NCBI GenBank assembly: GCA_018648645.1
Contig: JABGQS010000018.1
Location: 1-49,388 of the forward strand
Direction of reading: 5' to 3'
Origin: Clostridia bacterium
GTDB taxonomy: Bacteria; Bacillota; Clostridia; Christensenellales; SZUA-584
Length of the DNA stretch: 49,388 nucleotides
The position numbers were made by a program, and so were the translations under genes. Numbering within the stretch: the first letter of the stretch is position 1; every line of letters starts with the position of its first letter. The notes beneath the pieces were generated by a model. It saw only the letters and a program-made list of their open reading frames with translations, made no database searches and was not told the DNA's origin. Of the stretch, positions 11,904 through 18,752 are shown piece by piece.

Positions 11904-12314
11904 ATGGTACCGGGGAGCAAAGACACCGCAAAAGCCGCAATAAGACTTGCGCTAAGCTCATCTAGAGACGAAGAAAAACTATTGCAGGGCAAATACGCAG
12001 AAAAAGGCGTTATGGTAGCCGCGGTAGATTTCGGCGGCGAATTTATCCCTTCAATCATGAAAATTATTGAGTGCGCCATTGTCGCTGCAAAGCGCGAAAA
12101 GATAATTGGCGACGTTTTTCACGAGGAAGGTGCTGTCGCAGGCGCAACGCGTGAAGCGCTTACACAATTACACTACAAGGCAATGGGACTTAACGTTGGC
12201 GGCAAAATCGGAATCGCGCGCTATGGCGAGCACATCGCCGTCACCGTGTTCTTTGGAATCGGGCTGCTTCATCTAAACGAAGTCGCCATTGGCCTAGGTC
12301 ACAGAGTCATATGA
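11904..12314 (+). CDS. HutP family protein
   Basis: A 136-residue protein whose last 70 residues align by eye with B. subtilis HutP, the histidine- and Mg2+-dependent RNA antiterminator of the hut operon: HIAVTVFFGIGLLHLNEVAIGLGH corresponds to the C-terminal strands. In an alignment from memory, the histidines that bind metal and ligand in HutP (in SHALYHATMEAL) are Gly here (EGAVAGATREAL), so the ligand is probably different. No hut gene is near; it overlaps cmk by 4 nt (ATGA). GGAGG lies about 10 nt before the ATG. It may be an RNA-binding regulator, perhaps of this operon; this is inference. Confidence 0.8.
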   Translation: MVPGSKDTAKAAIRLALSSSRDEEKLLQGKYAEKGVMVAAVDFGGEFIPSIMKIIECAIVAAKREKIIGDVFHEEGAVAGATREALTQLHYKAMGLNVGGKIGIARYGEHIAVTVFFGIGLLHLNEVAIGLGHRVI

Positions 12315-12961
12315 AAATAGCAATCGACGGACCTTCGGGCAGCGGAAAAAGCACGCTTGCAAAAACACTTGCCAAAAGACTAAACATCTACTACCTTGAC
12401 ACAGGTTCCATGTACCGCAGCGCAGCATACGCGGCCGTGCAAACGGGCATCGACGTCTCAGACGAGTCTGCTGTAGCCGCGCTTATGAACCGCACTGTAT
12501 TTTTGACTGAATACGAGAACGGCGAACAGCAAAACTATGTAGACGGCGTTAACGTTATGCCCTTCATCCGCACACCCGAAATTTCAAAAGCAGCGTCAGA
12601 TATTTCGGCTCACCCGTGCGTGCGCTACAAGCTCGTAGACATGCAGCGTCAGGTCTCGCAAAACTACGATATCGTGCTCGACGGCAGAGACATCGGCACC
12701 TTCGTGCTCCCGGATGCAGACTACAAATTCTACATCACAGCAGAAGCAGCCGAGCGCGCAAAGCGCAGGTTTTTGGAAGACGCAGATAAAAACACCGGAC
12801 AGACTCTGGATGAAGTGCTTATGGATATGAAACAACGCGATTACAACGATGCAAATCGCGGGCTCGCTCCGCTAAAACAAGCCGACGACGCAATTTTAAT
12901 CGACACTACCGATTTATCCATAGACGAAGTGGTTTGCGCTATACTGAAATACTTAAATTAG
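12311..12961 (+). CDS. cmk: (d)CMP kinase
   Basis: Phosphorylates CMP and dCMP with ATP. The 216-residue protein has the P-loop GPSGSGKST at residues 6-14, YLDTGSMYRSAAY for substrate binding, DGRDIGTFVLPDADYKFYITA and a basic lid segment with the QRDYNDANR motif. It overlaps the HutP-like gene by ATGA and is followed after 9 nt by plsC. The series cmk-plsC-ispH-rpsA is a familiar order in clostridia and supports the call. Confidence 0.97.
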   Translation: MKIAIDGPSGSGKSTLAKTLAKRLNIYYLDTGSMYRSAAYAAVQTGIDVSDESAVAALMNRTVFLTEYENGEQQNYVDGVNVMPFIRTPEISKAASDISAHPCVRYKLVDMQRQVSQNYDIVLDGRDIGTFVLPDADYKFYITAEAAERAKRRFLEDADKNTGQTLDEVLMDMKQRDYNDANRGLAPLKQADDAILIDTTDLSIDEVVCAILKYLN

Positions 12962-12970
12962 GAGTATCAT

Positions 12971-13558
12971 ATGTTTTATTATTTTGTTAAATATCTGCTC
13001 ACGCCGTTTTTGTACATTTTCTTTTTTCCTAAAATTATTGGCAGAAAAAACACAAAAATCAAAGGCAAGGCAATCATCATAAGCAACCACTCCAGTATGG
13101 GAGACCCGCTTCTGCTATCTGCCACGTTCCACAGACAAATACTGTGGATGAGCAAAGCAGAACTTTTCGAGCACAAGCTGACGGCCGCATTGTTTAACGG
13201 TGTACGTAGTTTTCCTGTTCACAGAGGGGAGAGTGACCTTCCGGCTATCCGCCACGCTTTTAGGATGCTTCGCGACGGCGAAATCCTTGGCATCTTCCCC
13301 GAAGGCACGCGCGTAAAGAGTGAGGGTATCCGAGACTTCGAGTCCGGCACAGCGCTACTGGCGCTCAAAAGCAAAGCCCCAATTATCCCTGTCTATATCA
13401 AAGGTGACTACAAATTGTTTCGCCGTATGACATTGACTATCGGAGAGCCGATACTGCTGTCAGAACACATTGGTGAGGGACCAAAATCGCAGACGACAGA
13501 GAGAGCAACACTGTTTCTGCAAAACAAACTATTAGAAATGAGAGAAGCACTAAATTAA
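12971..13558 (+). CDS. plsC: 1-acyl-sn-glycerol-3-phosphate acyltransferase PlsC
   Basis: Acylates lysophosphatidic acid to phosphatidic acid at the inner membrane face. At 195 residues it is a compact PlsC. The catalytic NHSSMGD (Asn-His-x4-Asp, about residues 39-45) and FPEGTR (about 115-120) motifs are intact, and the N-terminus is hydrophobic (YYFVKYLLTPFLYIFFFP), likely a membrane anchor. AGGAG precedes the ATG. The ispH-rpsA frame begins 3 nt after its stop, indicating one operon for lipid, isoprenoid and translation functions. Confidence 0.93.
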   Translation: MFYYFVKYLLTPFLYIFFFPKIIGRKNTKIKGKAIIISNHSSMGDPLLLSATFHRQILWMSKAELFEHKLTAALFNGVRSFPVHRGESDLPAIRHAFRMLRDGEILGIFPEGTRVKSEGIRDFESGTALLALKSKAPIIPVYIKGDYKLFRRMTLTIGEPILLSEHIGEGPKSQTTERATLFLQNKLLEMREALN

Positions 13559-13561
13559 CTC

Positions 13562-15982
13562 ATGATTATTTTAGCAGAGAACGCCGGCTTTTGCTTTGGT
13601 GTAAAGCGAGCAGTAGACGCGGTGGAAAACAACATAGACAAGCGGCTCGTAACACTAGGTCCGCTTATCCACAACAAGAACGTAGTAGACTCGCTGGCTA
13701 AGCGCGGCGTAAAATGCATTGGCAGTCTTGATGAAATTCTTCCGGGTGAAACTGTTGTGATTCGCTCACACGGTGTCCCGGAGCAAATCTACACCCGGCT
13801 CCACGATAATAACATCGAGTACATTGACGAAACCTGCCCACACGTAAAGGCAATACACGAGCGCGTGTTGCAGGCGAAGCAAAACGAAACTCCCGTGATA
13901 ATTGTCGGCGAAATCGGTCATCCCGAGGTCATCGGTATACTCGGCTGGTCTGGCGACAGGGCATATGTCGTATACGAGCAAGACGACATAGAGAAATTGC
14001 CTAACCTAGATAAAGCGGTAGTTGTTGCGCAGACAACCATCACACAAGATAAGTGGGACAACATCACTCGCGCTCTTCAAGTAAAGATAGATGAGCTCAT
14101 TTTGTTCTGTAGTATATGCAGCGCAACGCGAAAAAGACAGGACGAGGCGAAACGAATTGCCGAGAAATGCGACACTGTTGTCGTGGTTGGCGACAAATTT
14201 AGCTCAAATACACGTAAATTATACGAATTATGTCTCAAATTTTGCAAAAGAGTTTATTATATTGAACAAAAGTGCGAACTATTACTTGAAATAATGAGTA
14301 ATGGTGGTATAATAGGCATTGTCGCCGGTGCATCAACGCCGGATACGATAATTTTGGAGGTTTATAACTACATGAGTGAAAATGAAAAAGTGCTGCCCAT
14401 CGACGGCGAAGAGGTCGCAGTTGATACGGATGCAGCCATCGACGCGGTAGAAGCTGAATCGGTCGAAACGAAAGTTGCTACCAAGGTTCAAGAAGAAACA
14501 GTACCGGAGCCGGTACAAGAGACAATCGAAGCAGTCGAAGAGGTCACAGAGGTTGCTGATGAAGCAGTCGAAGAGGTCGCAGAGGTTGCTGATGAGGCAG
14601 TCGAAGAGGTCACAGAGGTTGCTGATGAAGTAGTCGCAGAGGTCGCAGAGGTTGCTGATGAAGCAGTCGAAAAGGTCGCAGACGTTGCTGAAAATGTTAC
14701 CGAAGTAGTCGCTGATGAAGCTGCCGAAGTAGTCGCTGATGAAGCTGCCGAAGAGGTTGTTGAAGAAGTTGCTGAGGAAGTTACTGAGGAGAAAGCCGAG
14801 CCTATAACCGAACAGGATGAATTTCTAGAAGGTCTGGAAAATGTTATTCGTTTGAAAAAAGGTCAGCTTGTAAAAGGCAATATCGTGCAAATTACGGATA
14901 CTGACATTTGCGTCAATATTGGCTACAAGTCTGACGGACTTATCCACAGAAGCGAACTGTCTGCAAAAGACGAAGCTATCATTGATACGTTCAACGAGGG
15001 CGACGAAATTGAGGCAGAAGTCTTAAGCCTGAACGACGGCGAAGGCAATGTTCTTTTATCCAGAAAGCGGATAGAGCGAAGACAACACTGGATAAAGATG
15101 AAAGAGAATGTAGGCACAGACAAGCTATATAAGTGTGTTATTGGCAAAGCAGTCAAAGGTGGCGTAACAACCAAAATTGAAGGCTACAGCGCATTTATTC
15201 CGGCTTCTCATATGTCTTTAAAATATATTGAAGACTTAAAACAATTCGAGGGCCAAGAAGTTGAAGTAACGCTTATCGACGCAGACAAACGTCAAGAGCG
15301 TTTGGTCGCGTCTCACAAATCAGTGTTGCTGAAAGAGCGTCGCGAGCAGGAATCGAAAATCTGGGAGAACTTCAAGAAGGGCGAGCAGATTACCGGCACA
15401 GTTAAGCGCCTTACCGATTTTGGAGCGTTTGTTGATGTCGGAGGAGTTGACGGTTTGCTGCACATTTCAGATTTAGCTTGGTCAAGAGTTAAGCATCCTT
15501 CAGATGTTGTCAGCGAAGGTCAGGAGCTAACACTGCTGATTCTTAATGTTGATTCCAACAAAAAGAAGATTGCACTCGGTTACAAACAGCTTCAAGCTAA
15601 GCCTTGGGACACAGTGCCGGAGAAATATCACGAAGGCGATGTCGTCACAGGCAAAGTAGTGCGTATTGTACCATTTGGTGCTTTCGTACAGCTAGAGCCC
15701 ACAATCGACGGTTTGGTACATATATCACAAATTACTAATCACAGACTGGAGCGCGTCGAAGACGAGCTGCGTCTTGGTGAAGATATAGAAGTAAAAATTC
15801 TCGACGTCAATGCCGAGAAGCGCAAGATTAGCTTATCACGAAAAGCATTGCTTGAGCCGGAAGACAAACCGGAAGAAAAGAAGGAAAAATTTGTACGCGA
15901 AGATCGTTACAACTACGAGCTTCCGCCGGTGGAAGAGTCAACTCAGACACTAGGAGATTTTTTCCCGAAAAATGATGAATAA
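13562..15982 (+). CDS. ispH-rpsA: IspH (HMBPP reductase)-ribosomal protein S1 fusion
   Basis: An 806-residue fusion. Residues 1 to about 268 are IspH, the last MEP-pathway enzyme: AGFCFGVKRAV (Cys12), ETCPHV and CSAT supply the three cysteines of the Fe-S cluster, and GASTPD is near the domain end. Residues about 271-428 form an acidic repetitive linker. From about 430 come four S1 RNA-binding domains, the last two most canonical (GTVKRLTDFGAFVDVGGVDGLLHISD; GKVVRIVPFGAFVQL). Such fusions are known in clostridia. Met271 sits behind an in-frame GGAGG (14356-14360), so a separate S1 protein may also be made. The IspH start has only a weak ribosome-binding site 3 nt after plsC. Confidence 0.93.
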   Translation: MIILAENAGFCFGVKRAVDAVENNIDKRLVTLGPLIHNKNVVDSLAKRGVKCIGSLDEILPGETVVIRSHGVPEQIYTRLHDNNIEYIDETCPHVKAIHERVLQAKQNETPVIIVGEIGHPEVIGILGWSGDRAYVVYEQDDIEKLPNLDKAVVVAQTTITQDKWDNITRALQVKIDELILFCSICSATRKRQDEAKRIAEKCDTVVVVGDKFSSNTRKLYELCLKFCKRVYYIEQKCELLLEIMSNGGIIGIVAGASTPDTIILEVYNYMSENEKVLPIDGEEVAVDTDAAIDAVEAESVETKVATKVQEETVPEPVQETIEAVEEVTEVADEAVEEVAEVADEAVEEVTEVADEVVAEVAEVADEAVEKVADVAENVTEVVADEAAEVVADEAAEEVVEEVAEEVTEEKAEPITEQDEFLEGLENVIRLKKGQLVKGNIVQITDTDICVNIGYKSDGLIHRSELSAKDEAIIDTFNEGDEIEAEVLSLNDGEGNVLLSRKRIERRQHWIKMKENVGTDKLYKCVIGKAVKGGVTTKIEGYSAFIPASHMSLKYIEDLKQFEGQEVEVTLIDADKRQERLVASHKSVLLKERREQESKIWENFKKGEQITGTVKRLTDFGAFVDVGGVDGLLHISDLAWSRVKHPSDVVSEGQELTLLILNVDSNKKKIALGYKQLQAKPWDTVPEKYHEGDVVTGKVVRIVPFGAFVQLEPTIDGLVHISQITNHRLERVEDELRLGEDIEVKILDVNAEKRKISLSRKALLEPEDKPEEKKEKFVREDRYNYELPPVEESTQTLGDFFPKNDE
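14356..14374 (+). promoter_or_regulatory. Internal ribosome-binding site and start codon within ispH-rpsA
   Basis: GGAGG (14356-14360) stands 11 nt before an in-frame ATG (14372-14374) exactly at the junction between the IspH domain and the S1 linker. Translation from it would give a 536-residue stand-alone S1-type protein. The site is embedded in the codons for Leu-Glu-Val and is stronger than the ribosome-binding site of the full fusion. Confidence 0.55.
14528..14764 (+). repeat. In-frame tandem repeats in the S1 linker
   Basis: Five consecutive 33-bp units (14528-14692) encode variants of EAVEEVTEVAD, then three 24-bp units (14693-14764) encode variants of EAAEVVAD. The units are nearly identical in DNA, with only a few substitutions each. 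They keep frame and produce a long acidic Ala/Val/Glu-rich, probably helical or extended linker between IspH and S1 domains. Unit number could change by slippage or recombination. Confidence 0.9.
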
Positions 15983-16009
15983 TAGTTATAACTTTAGGGT
16001 ATAACTATT
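15981..16009 (+). other. Hairpin overlapping the ispH-rpsA stop codon
   Basis: A perfect 10-bp AT-rich inverted repeat (15981-15990 with 16000-16009) begins inside the stop codon of the fusion gene. It has no T-run and is followed 40 nt later by a typical terminator, so it is not needed for termination. It could influence mRNA decay or S1 autoregulation; function unproven. Confidence 0.4.
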
Positions 16010-16048
16010 AAAGACCTCACAAAATATATTAAGACCCCCTTTACATTG

Positions 16049-16078
16049 GTCGTGATGCAAATCACGACTTCTTTTTTT
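16049..16078 (+). terminator. Rho-independent terminator after ispH-rpsA
   Basis: Stem of 8 bp (16049-16056 with 16061-16068), tetraloop GCAA, followed by TTC and seven T. It closes the operon running from the HutP-like gene. Confidence 0.85.
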
Positions 16079-16144
16079 GCTCCAAGTTCCATATATTGGG
16101 TTTGTAAACATTTATATTGCACGCTGTTTGAGCTTCATACAAAG

Positions 16145-16173
16145 TTGCAAAACGAGTGATAATCAACTATACT
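16145..16173 (+). promoter_or_regulatory. Predicted promoter of polA
   Basis: TTGCAA (16145-16150), 17-bp spacer, TATACT (16168-16173), 30 nt before the polA start codon. It comes after the preceding terminator and would start the polA-coaE-transglycosylase transcript. Confidence 0.6.
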
Positions 16174-16202
16174 AAATAAGACAAAACTTTTAAGGTGACG
16201 CA

Positions 16203-18752
16203 ATGAAAAAAACACTAATGGTGGTTGACGGAAACAGCTTGATGTATCGCGCTTTTTTCGCTATGCCGCCGCTTACAAACAAACACAGCGAACCGGTTGG
16301 TGCAATATACGGATTCTTTAGTATGCTTATCAGCGCTCTTGATTCATTAGCGCCCGAAAGTCTTGCAATCGCATTTGACATGAAAGGCAAAACATTTCGT
16401 CACGATATTTACGAGCAGTACAAAGGCACCCGCAAACCAATGCCGGACGAACTCATTCCGCAGTTTCCGGTGCTCAAGAAAGCCCTAAATGGTATGGGAA
16501 TCAAGACACTGCAGAGCGCGGGATACGAGGCCGATGACATCCTTGGCGCAATGTCTTTGCTTGCTGCCGGTAATGATATGACTTCGGTGCTGGTCACCGG
16601 CGACAAAGACATTTACCAATTAGTAAGTGATTCTTGCAGCGTACTTATGACGCGCAAAGGCGTCAGCGAATCTCTTTACGTAGACGAGAGCAAACTCGAC
16701 GAATTGTATTCGCTTTCGCCAAGTCAGATTGTCGATCTCAAAGGCTTTATGGGCGACTCTTCCGACAACATCCCGGGTGTTCCCGGCGTCGGCGAAAAAA
16801 CAGCGCTTAAGCTTTTGCACGAATACAAAGACATGGACGGCGTGTATGCTCACATCGATGAACAGAAGGGTAAGCTGAGAGAAAAACTTGCTGACAACAA
16901 AGATTTGGCGTACCTCAGTCGCGAGCTTGCGACAATCGATTCGAATGTGCCTCTGGACGTAACGCTGGAAGACATCGCATTTAGCGGTCTGATAGAAGAG
17001 AACACAAAGCCCGTTCTCGAGGACCTCGGTTTCTCTTCGCTTGTCAAACGCCTCGGCTACGAGAAAAGCTCGCTATCGCAGCTAACAACAATCGAAATCA
17101 CAGACATGGCTGGTTTAATGAAGCTTATATCAGACATAAAATACACTACACACATTGCGCTTCACCTCGGCAGCGAAATCACTGTTTCCTTGTCACAAAA
17201 CACAGAATACTCAATTATCTGCGAGCATTCACTGCTTAATATAGACTTCACGCGCGACATTGTTCTTGACGCACTAAAGCCCATTCTGCAAGACAGCAAA
17301 ATCCCCAAAGTTTTCTTCGGCGCAAAAAACATATCTGCCGAGCTTGCTTTATCTGGCATCAAAATAGACGGAATCCTTTTCGACACAAAAATCGCCGAAT
17401 ACGTTATCAACCCGTCAAGCGCAAACGCCGACATCGAAAAACTTGCCGAACGTTACGGCGAGGGCGGAAGCGCGTCCGCTTTGATGGGCTTATATTTACA
17501 GCAAAAAAAGCAGCTGAAGGAAAACGACCTTTGGTACGTATACAACGACATCGAAATGCCGCTGATGCAGGTGCTGCTCGATATGGAGGACACGGGGTTC
17601 CGTATCGACTTTGATTTGCTGAGTGAATTTTCCAAGAATATGACTGCCGAGATTGACAGCCTAAAAGCAAATATATACGAAACCAGCGGTTACGATGACT
17701 TTAACATCAACTCGACGCAACAGCTTAGCAACGTTCTGTTCGAGCGTCTGGGGCTACCGGCAGAAAAGAAAACCAAAACGGGCTTTTCCACAAGCAACGA
17801 AGTTCTCGAAAGCTTATACGATAAACACCCTGTTATAGATTTCATAATGCGATATCGCCGTCTTGCAAAACTCAAAAGCACTTACATCGACGGTCTTAAG
17901 GAAATCGCAGACACGGACGGTTTTGTACACACAACCTTTGTTCAAGTTTCAACCGTCACAGGCAGAATATCCAGCAAAGAGCCAAACTTGCAAAACATCC
18001 CGATTCGAACAAAGCAAGGCAGAGAAATCCGACGTTTGTTCCTGCCGTCAACGCCACAACGCAAACTCGTCACGTCCGACTATTCCCAAATCGAGCTTCG
18101 TATACTCGCGTCCATTTCCGGCGACGACGTAATGAAGCAAGCATTCTTCTCAGGTGACGACATCCACACTCGCACAGCGTCCGAAGTTTTCGGCGTCCCT
18201 CTTGACCAAGTAACGGGCGAAATGCGCGGCAGCGCAAAAGCCGTCAATTTCGGCATTGTCTACGGCATAAGCGACTTCGGGCTGGCTAAAAATCTCGGCG
18301 TTTCTGTAAAAAAAGCGGGCAGTTACATCGACAGATACTTTATGCGCTTTTCGGGCGTAAAGCAATATATGGACGAAATCAAAATCAAAGCGAAACAAGA
18401 CGGCTACGTGACCACTCTTTTAGGTCGCCGCAGATACTTGCCGGAACTCAAATCATCCAACTATAACGTTCGCTCGTTTGGAGAGCGCGCAGCGTTAAAC
18501 ACGCCGATACAAGGCAGCGCCGCAGACATCATCAAACTTGCGATGATAGACGTAGCGGACAAGCTGAACAGCGGCGGGTACGCTTCAAAGCTGATACTCC
18601 AAGTGCACGATGAATTGATTATAGACACCGCAATGGACGAGTTAACCGCCATCAAAGCGCTTTTGAAGCAGAGCATGGAAACCGCTTACGAACTGGACGT
18701 TCCGCTCATTGCAGACATCGGCGTTGGCGACAATTGGCTGGAGGCAAAATAA
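16203..18752 (+). CDS. polA: DNA polymerase I
   Basis: An 849-residue family A polymerase for gap filling and Okazaki fragment maturation. The 5'-3' exonuclease domain (about 1-290) has VDGNSLMYRAFFA, EADDILG and DSSDNIPGVPGVGEKTA. The polymerase domain carries motif A (TSDYSQIELRILA), motif B (AKAVNFGIVYGIS) and motif C (QVHDELI). The middle 3'-5' exonuclease-like domain (about 300-460) lacks the Asp-x-Glu metal-binding motif (it reads HIALHLGSE), so proofreading is predicted to be absent, as in Bacillus polymerase I. AAGGTGA precedes the ATG. Confidence 0.97.
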   Translation: MKKTLMVVDGNSLMYRAFFAMPPLTNKHSEPVGAIYGFFSMLISALDSLAPESLAIAFDMKGKTFRHDIYEQYKGTRKPMPDELIPQFPVLKKALNGMGIKTLQSAGYEADDILGAMSLLAAGNDMTSVLVTGDKDIYQLVSDSCSVLMTRKGVSESLYVDESKLDELYSLSPSQIVDLKGFMGDSSDNIPGVPGVGEKTALKLLHEYKDMDGVYAHIDEQKGKLREKLADNKDLAYLSRELATIDSNVPLDVTLEDIAFSGLIEENTKPVLEDLGFSSLVKRLGYEKSSLSQLTTIEITDMAGLMKLISDIKYTTHIALHLGSEITVSLSQNTEYSIICEHSLLNIDFTRDIVLDALKPILQDSKIPKVFFGAKNISAELALSGIKIDGILFDTKIAEYVINPSSANADIEKLAERYGEGGSASALMGLYLQQKKQLKENDLWYVYNDIEMPLMQVLLDMEDTGFRIDFDLLSEFSKNMTAEIDSLKANIYETSGYDDFNINSTQQLSNVLFERLGLPAEKKTKTGFSTSNEVLESLYDKHPVIDFIMRYRRLAKLKSTYIDGLKEIADTDGFVHTTFVQVSTVTGRISSKEPNLQNIPIRTKQGREIRRLFLPSTPQRKLVTSDYSQIELRILASISGDDVMKQAFFSGDDIHTRTASEVFGVPLDQVTGEMRGSAKAVNFGIVYGISDFGLAKNLGVSVKKAGSYIDRYFMRFSGVKQYMDEIKIKAKQDGYVTTLLGRRRYLPELKSSNYNVRSFGERAALNTPIQGSAADIIKLAMIDVADKLNSGGYASKLILQVHDELIIDTAMDELTAIKALLKQSMETAYELDVPLIADIGVGDNWLEAK

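Follow-up and report, generated by a model that had tools for sequence, protein, structure and literature searches.

An internal ribosome-binding site as the probable rpsA start within fused ispH-rpsA genes of Clostridia and other members of their phylum

How can an abundant ribosomal protein share a single gene with a metabolic enzyme? The question is raised by a fused ispH-rpsA gene in the window, by which we mean the whole stretch of 49,388 nucleotides of Clostridia bacterium DNA analyzed here (GenBank assembly GCA_018648645.1, contig JABGQS010000018.1). The IspH-RPS1 “Rosetta stone” fusion has already been described by Rao et al. (2015), who considered it to be one bifunctional protein and hypothesized that it links Fe-S sensing to the stringent response (PMC4746011); the words “internal” and “linker” are absent from that paper (PMC4746011). 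The fusion is cited as a Rosetta stone case, from which the ribosome and isoprenoid synthesis are inferred to be linked in function, and databases likewise present it as one bifunctional protein. The gene in the window has the same gene and domain order as the known fusions and comes from the same kind of anaerobe (PMC4746011; NF000907). Its 806-codon open reading frame on the plus strand (13562-15982) encodes IspH followed by S1 (806 aa, 90.0 kDa) and matches NCBIfam NF000907, the bifunctional IspH/S1 family, with 709.7 bits over both parts, above the curated cutoff of 624. The IspH (LytB) part comprises 270 codons (13562..14371; NCBIfam TIGR00216/NF009024, residues 2-271), and four S1 RNA-binding domains (Pfam PF00575) occupy 14852-15067, 15125-15319, 15371-15586, and 15626-15844 (14852..15844 in total). 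ispH has no stop codon of its own in this frame, which stays open through S1, so that here the two coding regions are not an overlapping pair in different frames. In the window's genome, which is incomplete, no second gene was seen that carries several S1 domains. Fused frames differ widely in length between relatives, reaching, for example, 1090 aa in G017.

A preliminary description had placed a GGAGG sequence 11 nt before an in-frame ATG, at the exact border between the two domains. The motif and the spacing were confirmed. The GGAGG Shine-Dalgarno element (14356..14360, plus strand) lies within TTG-GAG-GTT, encoding Leu-Glu-Val at the IspH C terminus, and is separated by exactly 11 nt (TTTATAACTAC) from an ATG (14372..14374) that is in frame with the 13562-15982 ORF. 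As in a gene within a gene, a candidate ribosome-binding site and a start codon are therefore found inside a longer frame and in phase with it, and the proposed separate rpsA frame (14372..15982, beginning MSENEK) would encode a protein of 536 aa and 59.8 kDa. The ATG directly follows the IspH domain, but about 160 codons separate it from the first S1 fold, at 14852; because an acidic linker of tandem 33-bp and 24-bp units (14528..14787) lies between the internal start and that fold, the border can be called exact on the IspH side only. These repeats are rich in Val-Glu-Ala and make up the N-terminal extension of S1.

The predicted duplex of the internal site with the anti-Shine-Dalgarno sequence has an energy of -10.5 kcal/mol, versus -2.7 kcal/mol for the start of the full fusion (13538..13564, plus strand; ATGAGAGAAGCACTAAATTAACTC-ATG), which has no Shine-Dalgarno sequence and whose ATG at 13562 is preceded, three bases upstream, by the stop codon of plsC. 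The weak fusion start that had been reported is thus borne out for the window's gene; it is a property of this genome, however, since the ispH start is middling in 193 genes compared, with a mean of -8.2 kcal/mol versus -12.8 kcal/mol for the site inside. The 3' end of the 16S rRNA was not found in the window's incomplete genome or in two relatives of its family, and for this reason the anti-Shine-Dalgarno sequence was confirmed in a single relative of the same order, G034. Only 5 of the window's 31 gene starts are stronger than the internal site. GGAGG followed at 5 to 13 nt by ATG occurs at 13 places on the plus strand of the window, and comparison with the list of open reading frames showed that the other 12 all open a long frame; in fused genes elsewhere, GGRGG lies 5 to 13 nt upstream of just 13 of 1,423 other in-frame ATGs. 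The internal GGAGG and ATG are thus more than a chance occurrence. Counting against an internal start, the 11-nt gap exceeds that of the window's own genes, which is mostly 6 to 10 nt. The best spacing reported for Clostridium ljungdahlii, with the 5' end of the ribosome-binding site 13 nt from the start codon (PMC6203783), is also exceeded in the present case (16 nt). An Rfam scan of window positions 12000-17000 gave no match. Downstream of rpsA, at 16050-16076, an inverted repeat (GTCGTGAT...ATCACGAC) with a run of T residues resembles an intrinsic terminator.

Conservation of the site in close relatives had been named as a check on the proposal. Border regions were fetched from relatives at every level from family through order and class to phylum, with protein similarity and not the motif as the criterion, and these included 206 genomes of one phylum with a fused ispH-rpsA frame. 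At the homologous codons, 196 of the 206 genes have GGAGG and 8 have GGGGG (204/206 together), and an ATG follows at exactly 11 nt in 188; the remainder of the 204 have GTG at that same distance or ATG at 8 nt. In both exceptions (L244 and L247, family f96) GGAGG is found a few codons downstream of this place, again together with an in-frame ATG. The site is therefore kept through family, order, class, and phylum, the opposite of the lack of conservation that would have counted against the proposal. In 188 of 193 genes it is predicted to be stronger than the start of ispH.

Since the motif lies in coding sequence, its conservation has to be weighed against that of the protein. GGAGG might be a by-product, with no role of its own, of a conserved Glu-Val at the IspH C terminus, and both residues are indeed conserved here in many IspH proteins, unfused ones included. 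The choice of codons argues strongly otherwise. Every fused gene with Glu at the motif position encodes it by GAG, where about a third would be expected to do so, and the codon before it ends in G in all 204 genes although the residue that it encodes varies (K, E, R, M, L, Q, T, or V): AAG is used in 93, GAG in 68, and AGG in 19, and AAA, GAA, and AGA never. Moreover, the motif is missing from unfused ispH genes with Lys-Glu-Val or Gln-Glu-Val at this place, in which Glu is encoded by GAA. These controls and the codon statistics together refute the by-product reading, to which we assign practically no probability. In a scan for synonymous constraint over 655 codon columns in 205 genes, in which each gene was compared with its own codon usage, the two motif codons ranked first and second of all columns (z = 21.3 and 18.9; next, 12.5; median, 2.0). 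In a thinned set of 103 genes with less than 60% identity, log10 P was about -101 under the genes' own codon usage, a figure that, like the other constraint values, treats species as independent and gives an order of magnitude only. The ranking against other columns is the safer statement, because all columns share the same phylogeny. Selection thus acts on the internal site over and above any constraint on the protein, as for a gene within a gene. The third most constrained column in the fused genes is the Ser codon in the GASTP sequence of IspH, where codons ending in A occur in 92 of 205 genes versus 31 expected.

The same figures bear on the idea that the motif is the relic of a once separate rpsA start and that the fusion is now the sole product. 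Split relatives, described below, do attest to such a start, now or in the past, but unused synonymous sites would be lost over divergence on the scale of a phylum, and yet no other column of the gene is as constrained as these two; a relic is thus very improbable.

Split relatives offer a natural experiment on the element, and it is the decisive control. In most genomes of two families, f55 (that of G082) and f104 (that of G161), ispH and rpsA are separate genes in different frames, with rpsA beginning inside ispH, typically 13 to 25 nt before the ispH stop codon. The same ispH-internal GGAGG is present at these loci, 9 or 10 nt before the ATG or GTG of rpsA, and an rpsA start inside ispH in another frame is likewise found in G194. 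At such loci S1 cannot be made by reading through ispH, which means that the GGAGG element must serve as the rpsA start; no other ribosome-binding site for S1 is evident there. All 63 split overlapping pairs, a class that was called in part by seeking a site ahead of rpsA, have the motif, and it is absent from all 10 ispH genes with an rpsA that is unlinked or begins at another place. The cut-off and masked loci (L041 and L049) were counted as fused and one with a shifted site (L298) as overlapping.

Comparison of fused and split loci within a family points to the origin of the difference. A sister pair consists of L284, which is split (GAGGAGGTTCATACTAATGTCAGAATTAAGTTTTGAACAAATG), and L319, which is fused (GAGGAGGTTCATACTGTTATGGCAGAAATGAGTTTTGAACAAATG); in f104, the motif lies 10 nt before GTG in L301 and 11 nt before the start in the fused L325. 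In both pairs the two forms differ by a small indel that lies between GGAGG and the start codon. When the gap is 8 or 11 nt, rpsA falls in the ispH frame and the ispH stop codon is gone; gaps of 9 or 10 nt give two genes. The slightly long 11-nt gap of the fused genes is accounted for in this way, because, of the gaps that are usable, mainly those of 8 or 11 nt keep the frame. Parsimony requires at least six changes of state within f55 and 10 over the whole set, although the f55 tree is weakly supported and its starred branches alone force only one change. As reconstructed from these loci, small indels toggle the gene between split and fused forms while the ribosome-binding site stays in place.

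These observations also speak to a role in elongation, in which the motif would slow ribosomes between the domains and so aid IspH folding, with no initiation at all. Its position between two domains would suit such a role. Slowing requires no start codon at a fixed distance, however, and the few genes without ATG at 11 nt still have a start codon at a set distance, 11 nt for GTG or 8 nt for ATG; motif and ATG have shifted together in the two relocated cases, and in the split families the motif stands ahead of the rpsA start. We regard slowing as a highly unlikely explanation. Alternatively, free S1 might arise by proteolysis in the acidic linker instead of internal initiation, and the linker is long, acidic, repetitive, and plausibly unstructured. 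Cleavage leaves the conserved ribosome-binding site and start codon unexplained, and there is little chance that it is the explanation, although it could coexist with internal initiation. Termination of IspH by a frameshift at the +1-frame TGA overlapping the ATG (ATGA) was considered and set aside, as many relatives have ATGG.

Two further properties were compared along the fused genes. The internal start is predicted to be less folded than the rest of the same frames (mean z = +1.07; n = 205). Codons favored in highly expressed genes, counted as C-ending codons for Phe, Tyr, Ile, and Asn, are more frequent in the S1 half than in the IspH half of 153 of 201 genes, whereas fourfold sites trend in the opposite direction and the contrast does not hold for the window's own gene (21/42 versus 24/62).

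Overall, the comparisons establish, at the level of sequence, that the site exists, that selection acts on it at the nucleotide level throughout the phylum, and that it is the evident rpsA start in out-of-frame sister lineages. In the explanation that we favor, ispH and rpsA are an overlapping pair in which the ribosome-binding site and start codon of rpsA lie within the 3' end of ispH. Here and in most relatives the overlap would be in frame 0, and ribosomes completing IspH would therefore run on into S1 and produce the IspH-S1 fusion, while other ribosomes would bind GGAGG at 14356, begin at the ATG at 14372, and release free S1 of 536 aa. The proposal that the internal site starts a separate S1 is thereby supported, both by its conservation and by its place at the beginning of rpsA in split relatives, and we consider it very probable that it is a working rpsA start. 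We infer that free S1 is made from the same gene in this organism, and the relative strengths of the two sites suggest that it is in excess over the fusion, as had been proposed; free S1 is probably the main S1 of the cell. It is conceivable, though rather unlikely, that cells with the in-frame form hold both free and IspH-tethered S1, that the internal site sets the proportion of the two and some ribosomes thereby carry an Fe-S enzyme, and that one- or two-base indels gain or lose the tethered kind.

The different forms of IF2 produced from infB arise by in-frame internal initiation. Other cases include RpnS within rpn (PMC10327210) and Cas11b (PMC11899642). In these genes within genes, as proposed here, one ORF has two starts and the shorter product is the C-terminal part; unlike them, the present gene joins an enzyme to a ribosomal protein, and its reading-frame relation switches among relatives. 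Unidirectional overlapping gene pairs are also a known class in bacteria (PMC3887535), to which the split relatives, with rpsA beginning inside ispH, would belong. The frame-0 version differs from such pairs in that the ispH stop codon is out of the reading frame, so that the fusion arises while the downstream start is kept. Internal starts with C-terminal products are thus of an already known kind, and it is the consequences for a well-known fusion that are unusual. Searches of the open-access literature for an internal start, for an ispH/rpsA overlap, and for start-site data from Clostridia yielded no report, and an apparently phylum-wide internal start in the IspH-S1 gene, matching a frame-switching overlapping pair, was not found in those papers; it may have been described elsewhere. 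Passages from proteomic and genomic papers gave no information on the size of S1. If practically all of these genes have a separate start for S1 and small indels switch the frame, the fusion may largely follow from the reading frame, which would weaken the Rosetta stone inference. The site suggests how one gene can serve both an enzyme and an abundant ribosomal protein, and, if the reading is true, an S1 product is overlooked in the annotation of hundreds of anaerobes.

Several genomes depart from the common arrangement. A second, stand-alone S1 gene is present in two (G093:C42:37232-38278 and G118:C140:40805-41839), and the fused ispH-rpsA gene there still keeps the internal site. Three genomes without a detected ispH (G031, G054, and G116) keep a free S1; in two of these, of the same order as the window and 0.8 to 0.9 Mb in size, no ispH was found and the free S1 is about 340 residues long (L070 in G031 and L091 in G054). 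S1 genes without ispH in front are L099 (G095), L136 (G116, where no ispH was found), L185 (G250), L235 (G143), and L252 (G221). The upstream gene is cmk-like at L136 and plsC-like at L099, L235, and L252; G095 has its ispH at another place in the genome.
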